Origin: a virus
DNA: 42,269 nucleotides
Direction: 5' to 3' (one strand)
Virus record (IMG/VR): IMGVR_UViG_3300025324_000019
Coordinates: 1 to 42,269 of that record
Under the pieces are notes generated by a model. It made no database searches, was not told the DNA's origin, and worked only from the letters and a program-made list of their open reading frames with translations. The position numbers and the translations under genes are program-made. Shown here piece after piece: positions 2,888-29,979 of this stretch. Numbering within the stretch: position 1 is the stretch's first letter; each line of letters starts with the position of its first letter.

Positions 2888-5800
2888 ATGCCTCAACTGC
2901 AAAAAAAAGAACGTCCGACCCCTGAGCAGCTCAACGCGGCTTACCGGGATGGGTACATGACTGCGGCAGAGCGCAACGAGAAGATGCGCAGGCTTGCCCA
3001 TGACAATCTTGACGACCTTGTAGCTGATGGGCAGATATTCAACGCCTACTGGAAACAAACATTGAAGCACGTCCAGGAGAATTGGGATGATTTTGTAAAG
3101 ATTGCACAGACCCACGATCCAACGGAATCTTCATGGGGCAACATAAAGACAATCGGGCAGGCCATGTGGGATCAGGTCGGGATATTGACTGCGCCGTTGG
3201 TGGCGTTCAGCGAAGTGAACGGAGCGGTGGCGTTGCGCGTAGCCTTGCATAACGGAGCATCGCCAGGGCTCGCGGCTGTAATCGCAACGGCGGTTGAGAC
3301 CGGGAGCAACTTTGTCCCGATAGGCAAGACCGCGCAGTTATTCGCCAAGGCGATTCAAGAGAATGTGCCGGAATTAGCGACGGGAGTAAGCAAATTCAAA
3401 GGTGCGTTTAGCGATCCGGCGGCGGGTGTAACTGGGGCGAAGTCGATAGCTGGCGTCGAAGGCGGGTGGGCGCCGAGTGCTAAAGTGGCATCTGAAAAGA
3501 TTGTGGATGATGCGATTGAGCAGGGGTTGAAAAATGACGGGGTAAAAATTCCTTTGATAGCAGCCGAAGGCGAGGCGCCGCAAATTATTCAGCGACTCAC
3601 TCCCCAAGACGAATTCTTCAAATCTCTTCGCGCCTTCCAAAACCAGATGGCCAAGATGAGCGAGCGTAAGGCCCATGCCGCAACGCAAGCCGAGGCCGAC
3701 AAACTCGGCATCTTGCTTGACGATCTAAAACAACTCGGCGGAAAAGCGGGATTGAACGAGTCGCAAATTCTCGCCTACTTGAAAACGATGGAAGGCCCAC
3801 TGGATGAATGGGCCGGACTTGCAAAACAAGTCGTTGATGGTGTACCCGATGCAATTCCCTTATTTAACAAAAAGTCACAGGAGATTTTCGGTTATCTGCC
3901 GAACTTTCGCCAACAGGAAAAGACCGCAGGCCGTACCGTGGAAATCCTCAAAGAATCGCCGGCCGCAAAATCCGTGTCGTCTATGCTCGAAGGCTGGGAC
4001 CCCGAGAGTATGGCGAAACTAGATTTTAACGCGGCGACCATGACAATGGCCGAGGATGTTTTGCAGGCGCAAAAGGACGGCAAGCTTAAAGCCCTAATAG
4101 TCGCAGCGGATCAAGCGGATCAAGCAGGATTGAAAGGTGCAGGCTGGTGGGCGCAAACGAAAGAAGTTTTTCGCAACCTCTTACTTGCCACGCCTATTAC
4201 CTGGGCGCGAGTGTTTAACGGCAACCTCCTGGCTTCGGCGACGGATGTTGCTGAGCGTGGATTGGCAGGAAGGTTTTCAATTGACGATATCAACGGCGTA
4301 AAAAAAGGCGAAGCAATGGCCAATTTTTACGGCAAGATGGGGGCAATCGGAGAATCGCTTAAGGCGTTCGCGGATGGTTTCGCCAATCAGCCCGTAGGGC
4401 GATTCGACGAGCAGATCCATCGCGCCATCCCTGGTGTTATCGGCAGGATCGTGAATATCCCTACGGGGTTCGTAGCTGGCATCGATAATCTTTGGAAAAC
4501 TCTCGCAACCCGCGGCGACTATCGCGCGCTTGCATTCAGAAAGGGCGTAGAGCGAGCAGACAAAATGGTTGAAGCCGGAACACTCGCCGAAGGTAAACCC
4601 TATTGGCATTTCGTTGCTGATTACGCAGAGCGGCGGGCGAACCTGCCCACCGAGGACATGAGAGCACACGCCGTTACTGTTGCCCTTAACGATTCGTTTC
4701 AATCCGAACTAGGCAAGTGGGGAAAATCTGCACAACAGTTCATACAGCAAGGACCGTTGTATTTCTTTTTTCCATTCGTAAAAAGCGGAATGAACCTGGT
4801 TAAATGGACGGCAAAAAGGACCCCGGGAGTAAATCTTTTAGGAAAATCGCTCTACGATGACATCCTAGCGGGCGGCGAACGCGCCGATATGGCCGTAGCG
4901 CGCCTCACAATGGGCGGACTGGCCGCACAGTTCCTATATGGGCTGCACCAAGCGGGACTCTCGACTGCGGGAGGGCCTACCGACACGACGCTACGAAGAT
5001 CATGGAATAAGCCCTCGTATTCTATCATGTCCGGTAAAGGCGAATGGATACCGTTAAAGAACGTAGCTGATCCGGTTTCTCTAGTCTTCGAGGCAATCAA
5101 CGACTTTGCCGAGATTCACAATCAGCTTGACGACCCAACGGCGGAGCAGGGTTTAACGACCTTGGGCTTAGTGGCTTCGCGCGTCTTACTTGACAATACT
5201 TGGTGGCGCACCTTTGGTCAGATTGCGGACGTAGTGGGAACGATAAAAAGCCAGGAAAGCATCAGTGATAAGGCTGCGAAGCTTGCTATGGGGCCGATTA
5301 CTGCCGTCGCTACAGGCGGGCCGTTAGGAAGCCGTATTGTGCGGAGCATGGACCCCGTTCAACGCGAAGCAAAAACTTGGGTCGATCAGGCAAGAAACGG
5401 CGCGTTTGGCCCGGTGTTTGGGTACTCAGATAAAATGCCGTACATGCGCGATGGTTACGGCGATCCTGTTTTAATCCCACAAGCGATAGGGGCAGACTGG
5501 CTCAACAGGAACATAGGCACCTGGGCCGGCGCGGCACTCAATTTGGTGAGTCCGATTACCGAAGTGAAACAGCAGCCAGACAGAATTAAAGATGAAGGCG
5601 CGCGACTTCAGGTTAAACTGCCACGATTTCCTTGGTCTCTTGGTGGCAAGGTTCAAGACTCTTTCGATGTAAGTACGGCGTTGCCCGGCGATAAGTTGCC
5701 GGTAGAATTGACTCCGCAGCAGCGCGACCGCTGGCAAGTGATTTACCGTAGTAACCTGCGGCACCCCGACAATGGCATTGAGGCTCAGTTACTTAATACG

Positions 5801-16573: not shown

Positions 16574-17089
16574 TTATCCGATCCTACGTCTTCGCTCCGT
16601 TCGCTCCTCGTGGTCGTCCTTACAGATCTTGCTATGCCGATACTTTCGACAACTGATCGCGCTACACCTTTTGCAGCGTCGCCAAGTTCGTATCTTTCCA
16701 CGGATAAAAGCCGTGCTCAAATATGCATCAGCGAGTGAATGACCTTGTTTGCATATTTTTAGATTGCGTTGTTTTTCGGCCAGAGTTTCCGGGCCAATCC
16801 CTCGCATGATATTAGTTCTGCGATCAACAGCCTCAAGATGTTGAGGATTGCAACACGATCGAATTCGACAAAGATGATCTATTTCCAATCCTTCAGGTAT
16901 GTTGCCCTTAAATGTCAAATAAGAAAATCGGTGTGCGTAACCATGGTGTGCAGCGCCGAATGAAAGCAAGCCGTAGCCTGCGGTAGATATTCCGCCAAGC
17001 CAAATCCAACAGCCGGTATTCGGTTCGGGAATGTAGCCTTTCTCAAATCGCTCAATCGCTGGTATTCGTGGATAGATTCCTGTTGGCAT
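16574..17089 (-). CDS. HNH homing-type endonuclease
   Basis: A 171-residue nuclease. PNTGCWIWLGGISTAGYG is followed by AHRFSYLTFKGNIPEG, then LEIDHLCRIRSCCNPQHLEAV, with His, Asn and His residues placed as in HNH homing endonucleases. A second Cys cluster (ICKQGH and CKRCS) follows. Free-standing HNH genes of this type nick or cut DNA and spread between phages. The start has an AAAAGGAG ribosome binding site. It follows a second HNH gene and overlaps it by 38 bases. Confidence 0.8.
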   Translation of the reverse strand: MPTGIYPRIPAIERFEKGYIPEPNTGCWIWLGGISTAGYGLLSFGAAHHGYAHRFSYLTFKGNIPEGLEIDHLCRIRSCCNPQHLEAVDRRTNIMRGIGPETLAEKQRNLKICKQGHSLADAYLSTAFIRGKIRTWRRCKRCSAISCRKYRHSKICKDDHEERTERRRRIG

Positions 17090-17378
17090 CGGTCTCCTTT
17101 TTATGGCATTCCTTGCAAAGCGTTTCCAAAAATCGCGGGTCAACTAAAAGATGATTGTGAATATATTGGATCATCAACTCCCAATTCAAGGTTCCCTCAA
17201 CATGGTGAACTTGGACTTTGAATTCTTTTCCTTTTGCGACGCTTTGCTTCCGATGGCACGAAATGCAGCTATAACCGTCGCGTTTCAGCGCAGCGCGTCG
17301 CTCACGAGAATGAAGCCAGAGGAGGCGCAAGGCGTGAACGATGACGGATTTTGTGGTTATCTCCGGTTGCCGCTTCAT
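17052..17378 (-). CDS. HNH nuclease, second type
   Basis: A 108-residue protein. DGYSCISCHRKQS, then VQVHHVE, then LCKECHKKE give the CxxC-HH-CxxC(H) layout of McrA-like HNH nucleases, with the catalytic His pair in the middle. ATG 17378 overlaps the stop of the membrane protein before it. Two adjacent, unrelated HNH genes suggest a hot spot for selfish nuclease insertion. Confidence 0.7.
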   Translation of the reverse strand: MKRQPEITTKSVIVHALRLLWLHSRERRAALKRDGYSCISCHRKQSVAKGKEFKVQVHHVEGTLNWELMIQYIHNHLLVDPRFLETLCKECHKKETDANRNLSTNTSD

Positions 17379-17539: not shown

Positions 17540-18202
17540 TCACTTTAGCAAGCCGATTTCTTTCAAATCTTTTTCTCCGACTTTACGGCAATGCTTGACC
17601 CGGAATTTCCCATCTGTAGCTGTAGGCACGCAAAGATTGCCTTTCGGTTCATTGGCGAAAAACTCCATAATCAGAATCCGAGAGTTCGGTTTCCACTCCT
17701 TCATGCACCAATCCAGCGAGGCCAAGTTGATACCTGCGCCGCATTGCTTATTTTCGTCCTCATCAATCGTTTGCACGCTGAATTCTTCGGCCTCAAAATA
17801 ATTGATCGCCGCATAACCGTTAGTGACTGCATATGGACCTTCGCCTCGTTCGTTGACGAGCTTGTAGGCTCGAATAGGGCCAGGTTGATCATAGAGAATC
17901 CGTAGCGGTGTCGTTAAATGCTTATTAAAATTTTTGGCCCCGCTCAAGTCGGACCCGCTCAAGTTGGCCTTGCTCAAGTCGGCCCCGCTCAAGTCGGACC
18001 CGCTCAAGTCGGCCCCGCTCAAGTCGGACCCGCTCAAGTTGGCCTTGCTCAAGTCGGACCCGCTCAAGTCGGCCCAGCTCAAGTAGGCCCCGCTCAAGTC
18101 GGACCCGGATTTAATCGCCACCTCAACGCACAGCTTCAAGCTGTCAGTTTCGAGACTAAAAATCACAAAGCCGGAATATTGATTTTTGATTTCGAATTTC
18201 AT
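17540..18202 (-). CDS. Pentapeptide-repeat protein with C-terminal DUF5758-like domain
   Basis: A 220-residue protein. Residues about 40-95 are eleven pentapeptides of A/S-D/N-L-S-G type, which fold as a quadrilateral beta helix. Some members mimic DNA and bind gyrase. The C-terminal region (YKLVN, then GPYAVTNGY, CGAGINLASLDWCM, and TATDGKFRVKHCRKVGE) resembles the DUF5758 domain that often follows such repeats in phages. The 15-base DNA units at about 17939-18106 are nearly identical, indicating recent expansion. I chose ATG 18202, which has AGGAGG; it lies inside the end of the upstream gene. Confidence 0.75.
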   Translation of the reverse strand: MKFEIKNQYSGFVIFSLETDSLKLCVEVAIKSGSDLSGAYLSWADLSGSDLSKANLSGSDLSGADLSGSDLSGADLSKANLSGSDLSGAKNFNKHLTTPLRILYDQPGPIRAYKLVNERGEGPYAVTNGYAAINYFEAEEFSVQTIDEDENKQCGAGINLASLDWCMKEWKPNSRILIMEFFANEPKGNLCVPTATDGKFRVKHCRKVGEKDLKEIGLLK

Positions 18203-18374
18203 CTTGCGCCTCCTGTACCGCCAACTCGGCGCGCCGCCGTGTGAGAAATCCATTTTTGGGCCAGTCCCAATTCATCACCGGCAGTTTGTCGCCGTGATAC
18301 TCACCGGAATTACACCGCGCGTTGAGATAGACTTGCTGCCAGTAGGTTGAAGTTTCAATCTCTATTTGTTTCAT
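18156..18374 (-). CDS. Hypothetical protein
   Basis: A 72-residue protein, aromatic in its first half and charged-helical in its second. It overlaps the start of the pentapeptide gene by 47 bases and the end of the preceding gene by 20. No family recognised. Confidence 0.45.
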   Translation of the reverse strand: MKQIEIETSTYWQQVYLNARCNSGEYHGDKLPVMNWDWPKNGFLTRRRAELAVQEAQDEIRNQKSIFRLCDF

Positions 18375-22729: not shown

Positions 22730-22969
22730 CTACAACGCCGAATCGTTTGCAAGCCCTATTTTGATTATTTCAATATGAAACTCTCCCGGCACCCCACGCT
22801 TGCTGTGCAGCATCTGCGCGCGCGCGTCATTAGCGCAATCTAGGCACGCCCTCTGTTTAAGCGTGCTGCCGTCAGCAAGCGTCGAGCATACATACGCGAT
22901 AACCCGGCCATCGCGCGGTTTGCCTTCGCGGTCGTAGCCGTAGCAGCGTTTACAGATTGGCTCATTCAT
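22730..22969 (-). CDS. Zinc-binding hypothetical protein
   Basis: A 79-residue protein. CKRCYGYDREG and CLDCAND give a four-Cys site around a beta-rich centre (RVIAYVCSTLADGS). Function unknown. Two strong hairpins lie just upstream of its start. Confidence 0.5.
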   Translation of the reverse strand: MNEPICKRCYGYDREGKPRDGRVIAYVCSTLADGSTLKQRACLDCANDARAQMLHSKRGVPGEFHIEIIKIGLANDSAL

Positions 22970-22984
22970 AATTTGCAGTGCCCC

Positions 22985-23041
22985 TCTTCACGCAAGGGGC
23001 TTGAGCTCGCAGCGACTCCCGGGGAGAAGGAGACCCGGGAA
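22985..23041 (-). promoter_or_regulatory. Two hairpins in the leader of the 22969 gene
   Basis: On the minus strand a stem TCCCGGG/CCCGGGA with a 10-base loop is followed by a second stem GCCCCT/AGGGGC. They lie between the stop of the upstream gene and this start. They could protect or process the polycistronic RNA. Neither is followed by a U-run. Confidence 0.4.
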
Positions 23042-23051
23042 TGGGGTAAAA

Positions 23052-25419: not shown

Positions 25420-25608
25420 TCAGTTCAATATCGTCACGACCACTCGCCGGCCCACGGCCCGATCCACAGTCTCAAGCGCCACCAAGTAACACGCCACCCA
25501 CTCGCCGGGTTCCTTCGGGCTGTGCCGCTCTACCATCTGGCGCACTGCGCTGTCAAGTAGAGGCTCTGCACCGTTGATGACTACGCCGTTTACTACTGCG
25601 AGGAGCAT
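25420..25608 (-). CDS. Hypothetical protein
   Basis: A 62-residue protein overlapping the end of the previous gene by 16 bases. One helix-rich centre (EWVACYLVALETVDRAV). Function unknown. Confidence 0.4.
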   Translation of the reverse strand: MLLAVVNGVVINGAEPLLDSAVRQMVERHSPKEPGEWVACYLVALETVDRAVGRRVVVTILN

Positions 25609-25880
25609 GGAGTCGCCTTGTTCAGTCTTCGCGCCACTTCGACGGCGCCCTTTTTGTATAGAGTGATGCAGACTAGCTCTCCTGCCGCATCATGGACACG
25701 GTACGTCGACCGCCAGCCGCAGGGTTCGATGGTGTAGGGGCCGGTAGCTGGGATAGGCGCGGGAACATGGTCAATCATCTCCCGCTCGATCTCGTCCAGG
25801 TAGCGGGTGTGATATCCGTCCTGCTCGAAGAGCGCTCGGGCAATGCCGAGCGCTTTGTGATGACTGCCGTTGAGTTTCAT
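25593..25880 (-). CDS. Hypothetical protein
   Basis: A 95-residue protein with a good AAGGAG ribosome binding site. A helix (KALGIARALFEQDGY) precedes a beta-rich half (YTIEPCGWRSTYRVHDAAGEL). It follows a 92-bp repeat unit and an inverted-repeat arm. Function unknown. Confidence 0.5.
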   Translation of the reverse strand: MKLNGSHHKALGIARALFEQDGYHTRYLDEIEREMIDHVPAPIPATGPYTIEPCGWRSTYRVHDAAGELVCITLYKKGAVEVARRLNKATPCSSQ

Positions 25881-25912
25881 GTCCGTTCTCCTTGCCTCGA
25901 TCTCTCACCCAG

Positions 25913-25931
25913 GCCTGCCTGTCGGCAGACA
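25913..25931. repeat. 19-bp inverted repeat, left arm
   Basis: The sequence GCCTGCCTGTCGGCAGACA occurs here and, in the opposite orientation, at 29943-29961. It contains a smaller palindrome CTGTC/GACAG. The two arms bracket the 4-kb block that holds ArdC, the DUF2958-like gene and the cassette-like small genes. Confidence 0.6.
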
Positions 25932-25933
25932 GT

Positions 25934-26025
25934 TTGCGCACGCCTAGTTATGCCGGTCTTGACGGAACCGGCGTGAAGGTGGTTAGCCTACCGTTTCCCG
26001 CCGCGTAGGATACGCGGGGAAAATC
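25934..26025 (-). repeat. 92-bp two-hairpin repeat, copy A
   Basis: This copy differs from copy B (28616-28707) at two positions. Read on the minus strand it begins next to the stop of the DUF2958-like gene. It forms a stem TTTCCC+CGCGTA/TACGCG+GGGAAA (26001-26017 core) and a second stem GCCGGT/ACCGGC (25952-25972), and ends in the 14-bp boundary motif. One of the two differences falls in a bulge and the other outside both stems, so pairing is kept. It may be a 3' RNA element or a site for gene exchange. Confidence 0.7.
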
Positions 26026-26029
26026 GAAC

Positions 26030-26482
26030 TCATTGCCCATAAGCAGCTTCTTGCCGCGCCGTCCGTTTCGCTTTGATTTCCGCCAATGGCGTGGGTCGGA
26101 AGTACAGGTCAAGCTCCACGCCCGCCGCGACTAGCTCCACGATGGAAATATAGCCAAGCTCCCCACCGTAGCCAAGATCAGCAAGGCCGAAAGCTTGATG
26201 CTGTCCAAGTCGGTCCTGGGTTTCCGCGTCTTTCTCGTAAATCCACCAGTCCTGATTACCTCGAAAGTAATGGAGATAAACGATAGCCTCGTCGCCCTTG
26301 CCGTCTTGCTCGTAGGTCTTGGGCATATCACTTATTCGCTTGGCCAACTCAATAAACTTGTCGGCGAAGTGTCCAGCCTCTTTGCCCTTCAAGAAACCTC
26401 TCATCATTCGATACTCGGTCGCCGGCATGAACTCGTGGCAAACATTCATTGCCTCGTAGAGTTCTGTTGGTAAAGTTTTCAT
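26030..26482 (-). CDS. DUF2958-like protein
   Basis: A 150-residue protein. Residues about 70-140 (AIVYLHYFRGNQDWWIYEKD, then AFGLADLGYGGELGYISIVEL, then VELDLYFRPTPLAEI) follow the DUF2958 pattern seen on plasmids and conjugative elements, often near ArdC-type genes. The function of the family is not known. ATG 26482 has an AAAGGA ribosome binding site. It is followed by the same 92-bp repeat that follows ArdC. Confidence 0.65.
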   Translation of the reverse strand: MKTLPTELYEAMNVCHEFMPATEYRMMRGFLKGKEAGHFADKFIELAKRISDMPKTYEQDGKGDEAIVYLHYFRGNQDWWIYEKDAETQDRLGQHQAFGLADLGYGGELGYISIVELVAAGVELDLYFRPTPLAEIKAKRTARQEAAYGQ

Positions 26483-26551
26483 GGTCCTTTGTCTCTTTCT
26501 CCCACCAACCACGGCGGGGTTTGTTAGTTGCCTCGTAACGGCGGATATGGG

Positions 26552-26893
26552 TTAGACCGCGAAACTTGGCCGCTTGCCGGATACGACGGCGAAGTCACGC
26601 TTTGTCTTGGTATCAAAATACTCTATCCGCAATACGGTTGCCGGCTCATCGAGGGCCGCAATGCCGGCTCTTGCCCATTGGATGCCCGGCTGTTCGTTGT
26701 TGGCGCCAATGACCTTGAAGATCTTCCATTTGCGCGGTTCCATTTTCGCCGTGTCCTTGCGGATTTCAACGGGTTCCGCTCGGCTGTAGCTCGGCACATG
26801 CATTGCGCAGTATAGCCATGATTCTACTTGGTATTGCGGCACGCTAGTGCAACGCCGGCATTGTGCAAATGGTTCAACGGTTTTCATATTCAT
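26552..26893 (-). CDS. Hypothetical protein with an N-terminal Cys/His site
   Basis: A 113-residue protein. CRRCTSVPQYQVESWLYCAMH near the start could bind zinc; the rest is alpha/beta. The start has GGAGGGGGG. Flanked by the boundary motif on its 5' side. Function unknown. Confidence 0.5.
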   Translation of the reverse strand: MNMKTVEPFAQCRRCTSVPQYQVESWLYCAMHVPSYSRAEPVEIRKDTAKMEPRKWKIFKVIGANNEQPGIQWARAGIAALDEPATVLRIEYFDTKTKRDFAVVSGKRPSFAV

Positions 26894-26923
26894 TCCCCCC
26901 TCCTGGTTGCCCACGCCTAGTTT

Positions 26924-27133
26924 TCACTCCCAGTTATAATCCGAGAGCTCTTCGTCTTGTTCTTCCCGTTCGGCGGCAGTCGCTGGCGGTATTTTGGTGA
27001 TAATACCATCGGTCAGCAGGTAATTCAGCCGGGCCTTGCGTAGCCGTTTGGGTAAACATGGCCGGCAATCACCGGGCCTATCGTGCCGGTGGTTACAACT
27101 CAGCCCCGCGTACATGACTTCATATTTTGCCAT
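26924..27133 (-). CDS. Hypothetical protein
   Basis: A 69-residue protein: Cys/His-rich centre (CNHRHDRPGDCRPC), basic helix and acidic C-terminus (EREEQDEELSDYNWE). Bounded by the 14-bp motif on both sides. Confidence 0.5.
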   Translation of the reverse strand: MAKYEVMYAGLSCNHRHDRPGDCRPCLPKRLRKARLNYLLTDGIITKIPPATAAEREEQDEELSDYNWE

Positions 27134-27160
27134 TTTCGTTCCCTTCTTCGTTGCGCACGC

Positions 27161-27385
27161 CTAGCCCACATTAAGACCAGCCTCGAAGCTGCAATACTGT
27201 GCCTCGGCATTGACCAGTGCTTGCACGGCGTTGTAGTACGCAGCGTCAGTCTTCGCATTGCAGTGGTGGTCCTGCATTCGCAACTCCGCATCATGGGTCT
27301 CGCGTCTACGACGGTCACATAGACGACCCAAGCGATGCAACTCAGCCTGTTCGTCAACTGTCCATTGTCGTGTTGCCATTTTCAT
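27161..27385 (-). CDS. Hypothetical helical protein
   Basis: A 74-residue charged protein of two likely helices. AAGGGGG ribosome binding site; its TAG stop is part of the boundary motif. Function unknown. Confidence 0.5.
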   Translation of the reverse strand: MKMATRQWTVDEQAELHRLGRLCDRRRRETHDAELRMQDHHCNAKTDAAYYNAVQALVNAEAQYCSFEAGLNVG

Positions 27386-27405
27386 TCCCCCTTGTTGCGC
27401 CCAGC

Positions 27406-27564
27406 CTAGCCCTTGTCCGCCGTCTCGCCCTCGATAATCCCGCGCAGCATGCGGACTATCTGCGCGTTCGTGGATCTATCGCCCAGCTCGGCCAGCGCTT
27501 CTATGGCGTCGAGGATTTCCGCTGGCATTCGGATCGTTACGGTTCTGAGTGGTCGTGTTGTCAT
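27406..27564 (-). CDS. Ribbon-helix-helix-type DNA-binding protein
   Basis: A 52-residue protein. The strand TRPLRTVTIRMP is followed by helices AEILDAIEALAEL and TNAQIVRMLRGIIEG, the Arc/CopG arrangement in which the strand contacts DNA as a dimer. It could be a local transcriptional regulator, for example of the surrounding boundary motifs. ATG 27564 overlaps the previous stop; the TAG stop comes from the boundary motif. Confidence 0.6.
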   Translation of the reverse strand: MTTRPLRTVTIRMPAEILDAIEALAELGDRSTNAQIVRMLRGIIEGETADKG

Positions 27565-27866
27565 GGTTGCACCTCGCTTTCCAAACGCCAGCCATCCCGC
27601 AACATTTTGACCTTCCATGCCTCAATGGCCTTACCTGCCGTTTGAAAATATCGCGTAGTCTTGCCGCATTCAACGCATTGCACAGCCCAGGTATTTTTCT
27701 TGCCCGGGCTAAAATCCTTGAGCAGTCTGGGTTGATGGTGGCAAGTCATGGGTTCGAGGAGCATGGAGTCGCCTCGTTCAGCCGCCTCGTAATCGGCCGG
27801 AAGGGGCATCACCGTGCCCCGGAGAGCCAGCGCGTTGTGTTCGCGGAGTAGAGCGGTGAGGGTCAT
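27561..27866 (-). CDS. Hypothetical protein with CxxC
   Basis: A 101-residue protein. The second half has the small-phage-protein pattern C-H-H...WAVQCVECGKTTRYF..AGKAIEAW, possibly a zinc site with Cys and His from residue 42 onward. The boundary motif precedes it. Confidence 0.5.
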   Translation of the reverse strand: MTLTALLREHNALALRGTVMPLPADYEAAERGDSMLLEPMTCHHQPRLLKDFSPGKKNTWAVQCVECGKTTRYFQTAGKAIEAWKVKMLRDGWRLESEVQP

Positions 27867-27890
27867 GTCAGTGCTGCTGATTGCGCAAGT

Positions 27891-28055
27891 CTAGTCGTCT
27901 ATCTCCCTATCCTGCTCTTGGTCTGCCGCGCGTTGGGCTTCGTTACGAGGTAAGATAAACCCACGTCCTCCGCATTCACGGCAGGCATCCTCTGCGCATT
28001 GCGGGTTTAGTCCAGTGCCTGCGCAAAATTTACAGATCGGCCATGCCATTTTCAT
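27891..28055 (-). CDS. DnaJ-type zinc-finger microprotein
   Basis: A 54-residue protein. CKFCAGTGLNPQC and CRECGGRGFILP are two CxxCxGxG-like knuckles as in the DnaJ zinc domain. ATG 28055 has CGGAGGG. The stop is supplied by the boundary motif. Confidence 0.55.
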   Translation of the reverse strand: MKMAWPICKFCAGTGLNPQCAEDACRECGGRGFILPRNEAQRAADQEQDREIDD

Positions 28056-28074
28056 CCCTCCGGTTGCGCACGCC

Positions 28075-28344
28075 TTAGAATGTCCACGTTCTATCAAAGC
28101 CAATAACTTGTTGATCTCGGTGGCTACAGGTAAACGGCAATAACGCGACTGCTTTTTTTTCCTTATTACTAAATGTGATTTCAAAAGCTCCGAGTTTCGA
28201 CGCGAGTTCTCGGACACCTTCGCGCCATGTGAATCGTGGGCGATATTGAGTTAGGACATACGGACCTTGTTCGCCAAGTTTTGGCCTATCGCAAAAACAA
28301 CCCGATCGATACTCAGCAAAGATTTTAATTTGTTCCATTTCCAT
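28075..28344 (-). CDS. Hypothetical protein
   Basis: An 89-residue protein, beta-rich, with His, Cys and aromatic residues. Its TAA stop lies in a variant boundary motif. The opposite strand at 28260-28292 weakly matches the RNA-like motif found at 24187 and 31373. Confidence 0.5.
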   Translation of the reverse strand: MEMEQIKIFAEYRSGCFCDRPKLGEQGPYVLTQYRPRFTWREGVRELASKLGAFEITFSNKEKKAVALLPFTCSHRDQQVIGFDRTWTF

Positions 28345-28374
28345 TCCCTTCGCCCTCCCTTTGGTTGTGCACGC

Positions 28375-28581
28375 CTACACCGCCTCGCTTTTCCACAACC
28401 GCACCAAAAAATTTCGGTGGGGTCGGATTACATCGCCGCCTTCACGTTGCGCTGACCGTTCGGCTTGAGTCCGGTTCGAATATGTCAACGCGCAGACTTC
28501 CCCTTTGTAGAGCTTGCCGAGTACCACGACGCCGCTGGGTAGCGTTACCTCGTATCGTTCATATTCGATGGTTGGTTCCAT
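28375..28581 (-). CDS. Hypothetical protein
   Basis: A 68-residue protein beginning EPTIEYERYEVTLPSG. ATG 28581 has GAGGAGGGG. A GCCCCG/CGGGGC hairpin lies between the upstream boundary motif and this start. Function unknown. Confidence 0.5.
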   Translation of the reverse strand: MEPTIEYERYEVTLPSGVVVLGKLYKGEVCALTYSNRTQAERSAQREGGDVIRPHRNFLVRLWKSEAV

Positions 28582-28615
28582 TTCCCCTCCTCGCCCCGTG
28601 TCATCGGGGCTTTGG

Positions 28616-28707
28616 TTGCGCACGCCTAGTTATGCCGGTCTTGACGGAACCGGCGCGAAGGTGGTTAGCCTACCGTTTCCCTCCGCGTAGGATACGCGGG
28701 GAAAATC
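28616..28707 (-). repeat. 92-bp two-hairpin repeat, copy B
   Basis: It matches copy A (25934-26025) except at two positions. On the minus strand it overlaps the stop codon of ardC by two bases and ends in the boundary motif. See copy A for the structure. Confidence 0.7.
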
Positions 28708-29593
28708 ACGCCGCTTTTTTAAACTCCGCTTGCTGTATGCCTCGGATACAATCTGCTGCTTTTTGCGCCTGTCCTGCTGCCCAGGTGATCCACTTCTTGT
28801 TAGCCTTGTCCTTGAGTACAGTCAGCCAGGAATTGAGATAGCTCGCCGAGTTTTCAATTGTTCTGTTTTCAATCCCTGCAATCCCACACAAGTAAGAGGC
28901 TGTAAACTCTGCGACTAGCTCTTCTTTACTGTAGGTATGATCTCCGAACGAAGAACCGAATTCACGAGCAAGTCGCGAGCTATGTCCAGTCGAATGCCCT
29001 AGTTCATGGAACATGGTTGAGTAAAACATTTCTGCCTGGGAAAATTGCGACATTTCGGGAACCGTTACCGCGTCTTGCGACGGAGAATAAAAAGCGCGGT
29101 TCGATGCTCGGATATTTACTGCGGGCCTGTTCGGCATGGCATCGACAATGGCTTGCGCCTGCGGGATAATCTCATGTTTGAAACTGTCCGCCGGTGATAG
29201 ATCCGGCACTTTCAGCCCGTCACATTGATCGGTATTCCACACCGGAGTGTAACGCAATACCGAGTAGCTCTCGCTCTCGGTATCGCCATTCTCATCTACA
29301 GTCTCTTTCTTCATGGGCTTGTAGAAAACCGAAAATGCCGGTGACTTTTCGCCAGCCTTGACATGCCCGCCAAGGTCCTTGGCTTGCTTGAAACTGACCC
29401 AAAACGGTGACTGATAGCCAAGAGCAATGCTAGTCATCGACAACATGAAAGTATTGATTCCGCGATATGGCTTAGTCGAAGCGAAGTTTCGCGGCATGCC
29501 ATATTCGCCCTTCTTCCATGGACATTGCCAAGGAACCGTGCCGTTTTCCAATGCGCCGATAATACGCTGATTGATGACTTCATAAACGTCCAT
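28706..29593 (-). CDS. ardC: ArdC-like antirestriction protein
   Basis: A 295-residue protein. The N-terminal domain (PWQCPWKKG, then PRNFASTKPYRGINTFML, PFWVSFKQAKDLGGHVKAGEK) is the ArdC single-strand DNA-binding domain. The C-terminal domain has the zincin motif HELGHSTGH (residues 196-204) and a distal Glu in KEELVAEF. Such proteins coat or protect entering DNA from restriction enzymes and are known from conjugative plasmids and some phages. It is the first gene of the long minus-strand cluster and has a TAAGGAG ribosome binding site, which fits early expression. Confidence 0.85.
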   Translation of the reverse strand: MDVYEVINQRIIGALENGTVPWQCPWKKGEYGMPRNFASTKPYRGINTFMLSMTSIALGYQSPFWVSFKQAKDLGGHVKAGEKSPAFSVFYKPMKKETVDENGDTESESYSVLRYTPVWNTDQCDGLKVPDLSPADSFKHEIIPQAQAIVDAMPNRPAVNIRASNRAFYSPSQDAVTVPEMSQFSQAEMFYSTMFHELGHSTGHSSRLAREFGSSFGDHTYSKEELVAEFTASYLCGIAGIENRTIENSASYLNSWLTVLKDKANKKWITWAAGQAQKAADCIRGIQQAEFKKAA

Positions 29594-29942: not shown

Positions 29943-29961
29943 TGTCTGCCGACAGGCAGGC
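29943..29961. repeat. 19-bp inverted repeat, right arm
   Basis: Reverse complement of the arm at 25913-25931. It lies five bases from a parS-like palindrome and just upstream of terS. Confidence 0.6.
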
Positions 29962-29965
29962 TTGC

Positions 29966-29979
29966 GTTTCACGTGAAAC
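29966..29979. promoter_or_regulatory. parS-like palindrome
   Basis: GTTTCACGTGAAAC is a perfect 14-base palindrome and matches the core of the bacterial chromosomal parS consensus bound by ParB. With the flanking bases, only the first base of the 16-base site differs. No parA or parB gene is visible in the window. The site lies directly before the terS ribosome binding site. Confidence 0.55.

Follow-up and report, generated by a model that had tools for sequence, protein, structure and literature searches.

A 14-bp motif between stop and start codons and a probable three-hairpin RNA element in an array of small phage genes

What is the role of a short motif that stands, always in one orientation, at one gene boundary after another? 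The question is raised by the IMG/VR virus record IMGVR_UViG_3300025324_000019, from which a stretch of 42,269 nucleotides was analysed as a whole (hereafter the window). In this window, eight copies of CTAGGCGTGCGCAA or a near variant lie on the minus strand at 25934-28629, all in the same orientation. The reading favoured here, at a probability of roughly 0.5, is that the array comprises small accessory genes sharing a start-associated leader which would act as RNA in translation initiation.

The motif at gene boundaries

Each copy of the motif is placed between the stop codon of the preceding gene and the Shine-Dalgarno sequence or start codon of the next (Table 1), and the basic unit can be written as stop of upstream gene-TAGGCGTGCGCAAC-Shine-Dalgarno-ATG. 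Seven of the eight copies were recovered by ungapped searches allowing at most 2 mismatches, and the copy at 27394-27409, which these searches missed, was read by eye. In five copies the motif itself provides the stop codon that ends the preceding gene (TAG at 28378, 27894, 27409, and 27164; TAA at 28077), and the TAG is retained at 28629, 26920, and 25947 although it does not serve there as a gene stop. At six of the eight boundaries the 14-bp motif occurs alone in a gap of approximately 22-34 nt. Copy 1 is followed on its 3' side by a hairpin (GCCCCG..CGGGGC), then by GAGGAGG, and then by the start of the gene at 28375-28581. A preliminary description of this DNA had reported eight same-orientation copies, five of them giving stop codons, and direct reading and the searches bear this out. 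It had also placed the copies at successive gene boundaries, which holds at eight of them but not at 27561/27564 (an overlapping ATGA) or between 26552 and 26482, where the motif is absent.

The array was also said to hold the only copies in the window, and an ungapped search of the window at 2 or fewer mismatches gave none elsewhere. The window forms part of a 61,556-base contig (G001), with more than 99.8% identity over the common part. An 86-base repeat at the two ends of G001 makes it probable that the contig represents an entire circular genome, of about 61.47 kb. The ungapped search of G001 returned the same seven copies, none beyond the array, and one 3-mismatch match on the opposite strand. 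With TAGGCGTGCGCAAC as the query and at most 2 mismatches, 6 matches were obtained in G001, compared with a mean of 0.45 and a maximum of 2 in dinucleotide shuffles, and all 6 were on one strand within 2.7 kb.

Other carriers were sought by scanning IMG/VR with near-exact core patterns, after which each match was read individually. Beyond near-identical contigs of the window phage, four carriers were identified (G4, G5, G6, and G7), in all of which the motif has the same place between stop codon, Shine-Dalgarno sequence, and ATG while the downstream genes differ. In an alignment of 17 copies from five phages, all 17 were 5' of a start codon and in the same orientation. Information rose to 1.1-1.9 bits at most positions of TAGGCGTGCGCAAC, was high from its T to its C, and dropped sharply on either side to mostly less than 0.6 bits, the purine-rich Shine-Dalgarno sequence excepted. 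Because near-exact core patterns were used to find the carriers other than the window phage, conservation of the core is partly built in. This bias does not extend to the poor conservation of the flanks or to copies G5b, G5d, and G5e, which no exact match had revealed.

Searches outside these carriers gave no further leader. Across bacterial and archaeal genomes totalling 257 Gb, the exact motif followed by GGAG and ATG had 10 matches, against a rough chance estimate of about 13, and none of the 10 was convincing as a leader. No motif copy turned up among 50,697 phage records searched by similarity, BLAST comparison of the 92-nt element described below and of the consensus leader with phage and plasmid records gave no real match, and two more IMG/VR motif scans returned known carriers plus coding or chance matches only. 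A separate repeated leader, GCGAACGCTGGGCCACTAACTAAACTGGAA..GGA.CGAACATG, was observed before two genes of one contig (L111, G006, at approximately 2600 and 3200); by its sequence it is a second start-associated repeat, unrelated to the first.

A motif in one orientation immediately 5' of genes is also what would be expected if each gene had its own copy of a promoter read by a phage-encoded polymerase. Against this, a search for a T7-type RNA polymerase, in which T7 itself served as the positive control, found none in G4-G6 or the complete genome, and promoters approximately 200-300 bp apart with almost no untranslated leader would be unusual. A promoter function is considered very improbable.

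The extended element and its probable three-hairpin structure

Motif copies 1 and 8 form the 3' ends of two copies of a 92-bp element (98% identical, two differences), which the preliminary description had overlooked. A covariance model with three hairpins (H1, H2, and H3), built from these two copies, found three further, strongly diverged elements: G4 4784-4919 (E 0.0015 when the motif is included; 16.9 bits when it is left out), window 22960-23046 (E 0.055; 0.0074 when the window was searched alone), and L079 375-464 (E about 0.03), the last from a phage related via its terminase (34% identity) that keeps AACTAGCG, a shortened form of the tag, 3' of the third hairpin. The model also gives chance matches of comparable score elsewhere. 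All three diverged elements fit flush into the gap from a stop to a start codon, whereas only about 0.6% of strand positions would place such an element wholly within a co-directional gene gap (a rough figure from naive gene calls), and it is this position that distinguishes them from chance matches of similar score.

The third hairpin has a conserved 9-nt loop, UNCGUNAAG, across the elements. The loops UCCGUCAAG, UCCGUUAAG, UGCGUGAAG (that of window 22960-23046), and UACGUCAAG are carried, in that order, on the stems GCCGGU/ACCGGC, GGGCG/CGCC(U), GCCCCU/AGGGGC, and GUCUGG/CCAGAC. All six pairs of the H3 stem are changed on both sides with 100% pairing. Over the five-row alignment of the element, 93.9% of cells are paired and 17 of 24 pairs are changed on both sides, which no shuffle equals; these counts lean towards structure because the alignment was fitted to the model and its rows were chosen by the model. 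The positions of the elements are free of this model-fit bias, and so is an alignment of the G4 element with the window elements that used sequence only (p 0.007). A search for a stem around the loop T.CGT.AAG gave 4 matches in 1.33 Mb, 4 of 4 in stop-start gaps, compared with a mean of 0.57 for permuted loops. The stop-start placement, and stems that differ in sequence but stay complementary while the loop between them is conserved, make it probable that the extended element is a structured RNA. Model R3 yielded no additional member in 72 loci and 26 virus records, nor in 200 genomes of one bacterial phylum, a negative that carries little information because few candidates were scored.

An alternative fold of the 92-nt element, in which CRCGCC pairs with GGCGUG of the motif, is calculated to be 4.4-4.8 kcal/mol better than the H3 fold and would mask the motif. 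In G4 a similar pairing is no more than a prediction, and in L079 it is not evident. By this modelling, it is possible that the 92-nt element acts as an RNA switch.

A structured element with a conserved loop, following stop codons in long one-way gene runs, may also be an antitermination or RNA-processing signal of the put- or nut-like kind, with the motif as its 3' part or a cleavage site. The hairpins are, however, absent from most motif copies, neither sigma-70 promoters nor terminators in the array region rose above shuffles, so that no terminator enrichment supports such a role, and Rfam gave nothing at gathering score and nothing credible at a relaxed threshold. This explanation is regarded as improbable.

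Proposed role of the leader and gene exchange

Position, orientation, sharp-edged conservation, recurrence before different genes, and structural homologues between stop and start codons were observed directly. That the leader acts as RNA, that it does so at translation, and that it does so through a bound factor are all three points that we infer from the sequences. In the proposed mechanism, the leader within a polycistronic mRNA would be recognised by an RNA-binding protein of phage or host origin, or by the ribosome, and this recognition would set translation initiation or reinitiation of the downstream gene, thereby bringing host-takeover genes under joint control. At two places the unit is extended on its 5' side by the probable three-hairpin RNA, with the conserved loop in its third hairpin. 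An RNA-level initiation or reinitiation element is the simplest reading because the tag is tied to a stop codon and a Shine-Dalgarno sequence, has one orientation, and has an RNA-like extension. A more specific form of this proposal, in which the three-hairpin leader (loop UNCGUNAAG) and its 14-nt 3' tag constitute an undescribed family of cis-acting phage RNA through which one factor controls translation of an interchangeable set of anti-defence genes, is put forward tentatively and is less likely than not to hold in full. The match of GCGCAACC to what we take to be a universal stretch of 16S rRNA would arise by chance about 1 time in 3-4 by estimate, and was given no weight.

Several observations weigh against a leader acting in translation. 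Motif copies 4 (27881-27894) and 5 are degenerate, and copy 4 is without a clear Shine-Dalgarno sequence downstream. The short leaders have no stable fold of their own, and the pair counts for the extended element derive from a model-fitted alignment of about four independent sequences. In addition, L200, a relative with a 76%-identical terminase and a 10-kb flank, has neither motif nor element, so the leader is not essential to the phage group.

The preliminary description had proposed cassettes exchanged by recombination at shared boundaries, which is supported in part. The G4 leader, 46 bp from stop to start codon, is 91% identical to the leader at 28629, and joins a ribbon-helix-helix gene, whose window homologue lies 1.1 kb from the 28629 leader, to an unrelated gene. 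As G4 has this leader in a different gene context, comparison of the two phages indicates that genes and leaders have recombined relative to each other. The motif could then be a recombination linker, a short common homology for gene exchange by a RecT-type annealing protein of the phage, with ribosome binding as its only other role. Consistent with a linker, genes flanking the shared leader differ or are reordered, the leader that follows the ribbon-helix-helix gene is not the same in G4 and the window phage, unrelated upstream genes of G4 and G6 have GAGCAGGAGCAGG in common immediately 5' of the motif, and the window phage encodes both an exonuclease and a RecT-like annealing protein; relaxed recombination is established for Rad52-like phage recombinases (PMC3945230). 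However, the core is retained across distant phages and the neighbouring leader sequence is not, which argues that the motif is not merely a recombination scar, the TAG is retained where it is not a stop, and the stems of the extended element stay paired with changed letters, which would not be expected of a homology scar. A linker as the primary function is thus judged unlikely. No tyrosine or serine recombinase of the families tested was found in the four largest carriers (G1, G4, G5, and G6), and for this reason ordinary or annealing-type homologous recombination would be enough. For the translational leader, exchange is proposed to be a consequence and not the primary function: leaders would double as seams at which leader-leader recombination exchanges whole genes, cleanly because the leader spans exactly the distance from stop codon to start codon. 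A 27-bp stretch at 25599-25625 and 27755-27781, 96% identical in two different genes, suggests past recombination within coding sequence.

The other proposal of the preliminary description was a stoperator-type DNA site, at which a phage repressor, perhaps the Arc-like protein of the array, would bind the asymmetric 14-mer as DNA and block elongation through the operon. The stoperators of mycobacteriophage L5 and cluster A are likewise asymmetric sequences of 13-14 bp that lie in short gaps between genes and follow the direction of transcription (PMC9283540), and the small ribbon-helix-helix protein noted in the array is real, its G4 homologue lying just 5' of a motif copy in which it ends. 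The one-way orientation and the short gaps fit this proposal. But stoperators are genome-wide and served by a two-domain repressor, whereas the motif is confined to one 2.7-kb array, lies precisely between stop codon and Shine-Dalgarno sequence, and has an upstream extension with RNA-like structure; no obvious repressor of that type was identified. L5 is temperate and has an integrase, whereas the lack of the two recombinase families leaves no sign of lysogeny here. G5, G6, and G7 carry the motif, and no ribbon-helix-helix gene was noticed beside it, although a genome-wide search was not made. A DNA site of this kind is held to be rather improbable. A TGCGCA dyad was also considered as a ribbon-helix-helix site and received no support, as single changes in the copies break its symmetry uncompensated. 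The ribbon-helix-helix genes of the window (27555-27570) and of G4 (L084, G004; 5182-5360) share the way they begin, with GGTGCAACCATGAC as an overlapping junction to the gene that precedes them.

The array genes are small and of accessory type, with an ArdC-type protein first, followed by unknown proteins, a small CXXCXGXG protein, and Lar-like, Arc-like, and DUF2958-like proteins. The portal protein of the window phage has relatives in Pelagibacter and Vibrio podoviruses. Additional features were recorded. A 25-nt inverted pair with palindrome-like TGTCTGCCGACAGGCAGGC (25907-25931 and 29943-29967), one copy of which directly follows motif copy 8, looks like a dispersed palindromic repeat by its sequence. 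Eleven 15-bp repeats are present at 17906-18130 within a pentapeptide-repeat gene (17540-18253), which in G001 appears about 7 units shorter, the copy number being variable or misassembled. A free-standing HNH-like protein with IPEPNTGCWIWLGG is coded at 16574-17143, and a second HNH-like protein at G001 58409-58873, in a part of the genome absent from the window.

Table 1. Motif copies, extended elements, selected genes of the window, and other carriers of the motif.
Feature	Position or length	Strand	Remarks
Motif copy 1, CTAGGCGTGCGCAA, exact	28616..28629	minus	3' end of extended element copy A
Motif copy 2, GTAGGCGTGCACAA, 2 mismatches	28365..28378	minus	TAG is stop of 28375-28581 gene
Motif copy 3, TAAGGCGTGCGCAA, 2 mismatches	28064..28077	minus	TAA is stop of 28075-28344 gene
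Motif copy 4, CTAGACTTGCGCAA, degenerate, 2 mismatches	27881..27894	minus	TAG is stop of 27891 gene
Motif copy 5, CTAGGCTGGGCGCAAC, one inserted base and changes	27394..27409	minus	TAG ends ribbon-helix-helix gene
Motif copy 6, CTAGGCGTGCGCAA, exact	27151..27164	minus	TAG is stop of 27161-27379 gene
Motif copy 7, CTAGGCGTGGGCAA, 1 mismatch	26907..26920	minus	TGA stop of preceding gene immediately 5'
Motif copy 8, CTAGGCGTGCGCAA, exact	25934..25947	minus	3' end of extended element copy B
Extended element copy A: H1, H2, H3 (loop UCCGUCAAG) and motif	28616..28707	minus	begins at stop codon of ArdC gene
Extended element copy B	25934..26025	minus	few bases past stop codon of 26030-26482 gene
Diverged extended element without motif: H1 and H3	22960..23046	minus	between upstream TAA and ATG at 22969
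ArdC-type anti-restriction protein	28706..29593	minus	gene 5' of first extended element
Small protein, weak similarity to Lar restriction-alleviation proteins	27561..27866	minus	within array
Arc-like ribbon-helix-helix protein, candidate regulator	27406..27564	minus	Pfam Arc, 21.5 bits, above cut-off
DUF2958-like protein (PHROG 5203)	26030..26482	minus	last gene of array
G4, two motif copies	39 kb		shares only a few proteins with window phage
G5, four to five motif copies	59 kb		shares only a few proteins with window phage
G6, one motif copy	41 kb		relative of window phage
G7, one motif copy	5.6 kb		relative of window phage; terminase 78% identical to that of window

Comparison with known systems

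Like the attC cassette arrays of integrons, the array consists of small genes that point one way and are each followed by a repeated element. It differs from them in that attC-like imperfect inverted repeats (57-141 nt) are absent at most boundaries and no IntI-type tyrosine recombinase was found.

The closest known systems are the start-associated sequences (SAS) and extended start-associated sequences (ESAS) of cluster K and cluster EF actinophages. In cluster K, the SAS is a 13-14-bp asymmetric repeat, mostly in one orientation and just 5' of start codons, which sometimes holds the upstream stop codon and precedes genes of different families, and some copies have the longer ESAS immediately 5' (PMC3203893). 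The array motif is likewise short, asymmetric, in one orientation, and 5' of starts, precedes genes of different families in related phages, and has at some copies an extended element directly 5'. However, its consensus (TAGGCGTGCGCAAC) is unrelated to the cluster K SAS (GGGATAGGAGCCC), and the tag is 5' of a separate Shine-Dalgarno sequence, whereas the SAS overlaps the ribosome-binding site. For the ESAS, a 17-bp inverted repeat, formation of a hairpin in the mRNA has little support, in contrast to the three hairpins here, whose stems are changed yet paired. The setting also differs, with copies clustered in one array and a phage of Pelagibacter/Vibrio podovirus portal type. In Microbacterium cluster EF phages, the SAS is accompanied by a weakly conserved upstream extension centred on GTAGAG, some extensions are without a tag, and the tag has been shown to be complementary to 16S rRNA (PMC7302621). 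The two-tier layout is similar, and the element at window 22960-23046 corresponds to an extension without a tag, but the sequence and structure of the array element are unrelated.

The array element thus belongs to neither SAS/ESAS set, although the layout is alike, because sequence and inverted-repeat form are not common to them. In actinophages, start-associated repeats were recognised by 2011 but have no known function, and a 2025 survey still asks for experimental verification (PMC12699233). The present case is separate from the actinophages, being found in uncultured phages whose portal protein is of another type, and its leader provides a handle for locating accessory anti-restriction genes that bear it. 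The extended part leaves a structural signature, with paired stems of changed letters and a fixed loop, and thereby offers a testable RNA hypothesis for start-associated repeats.

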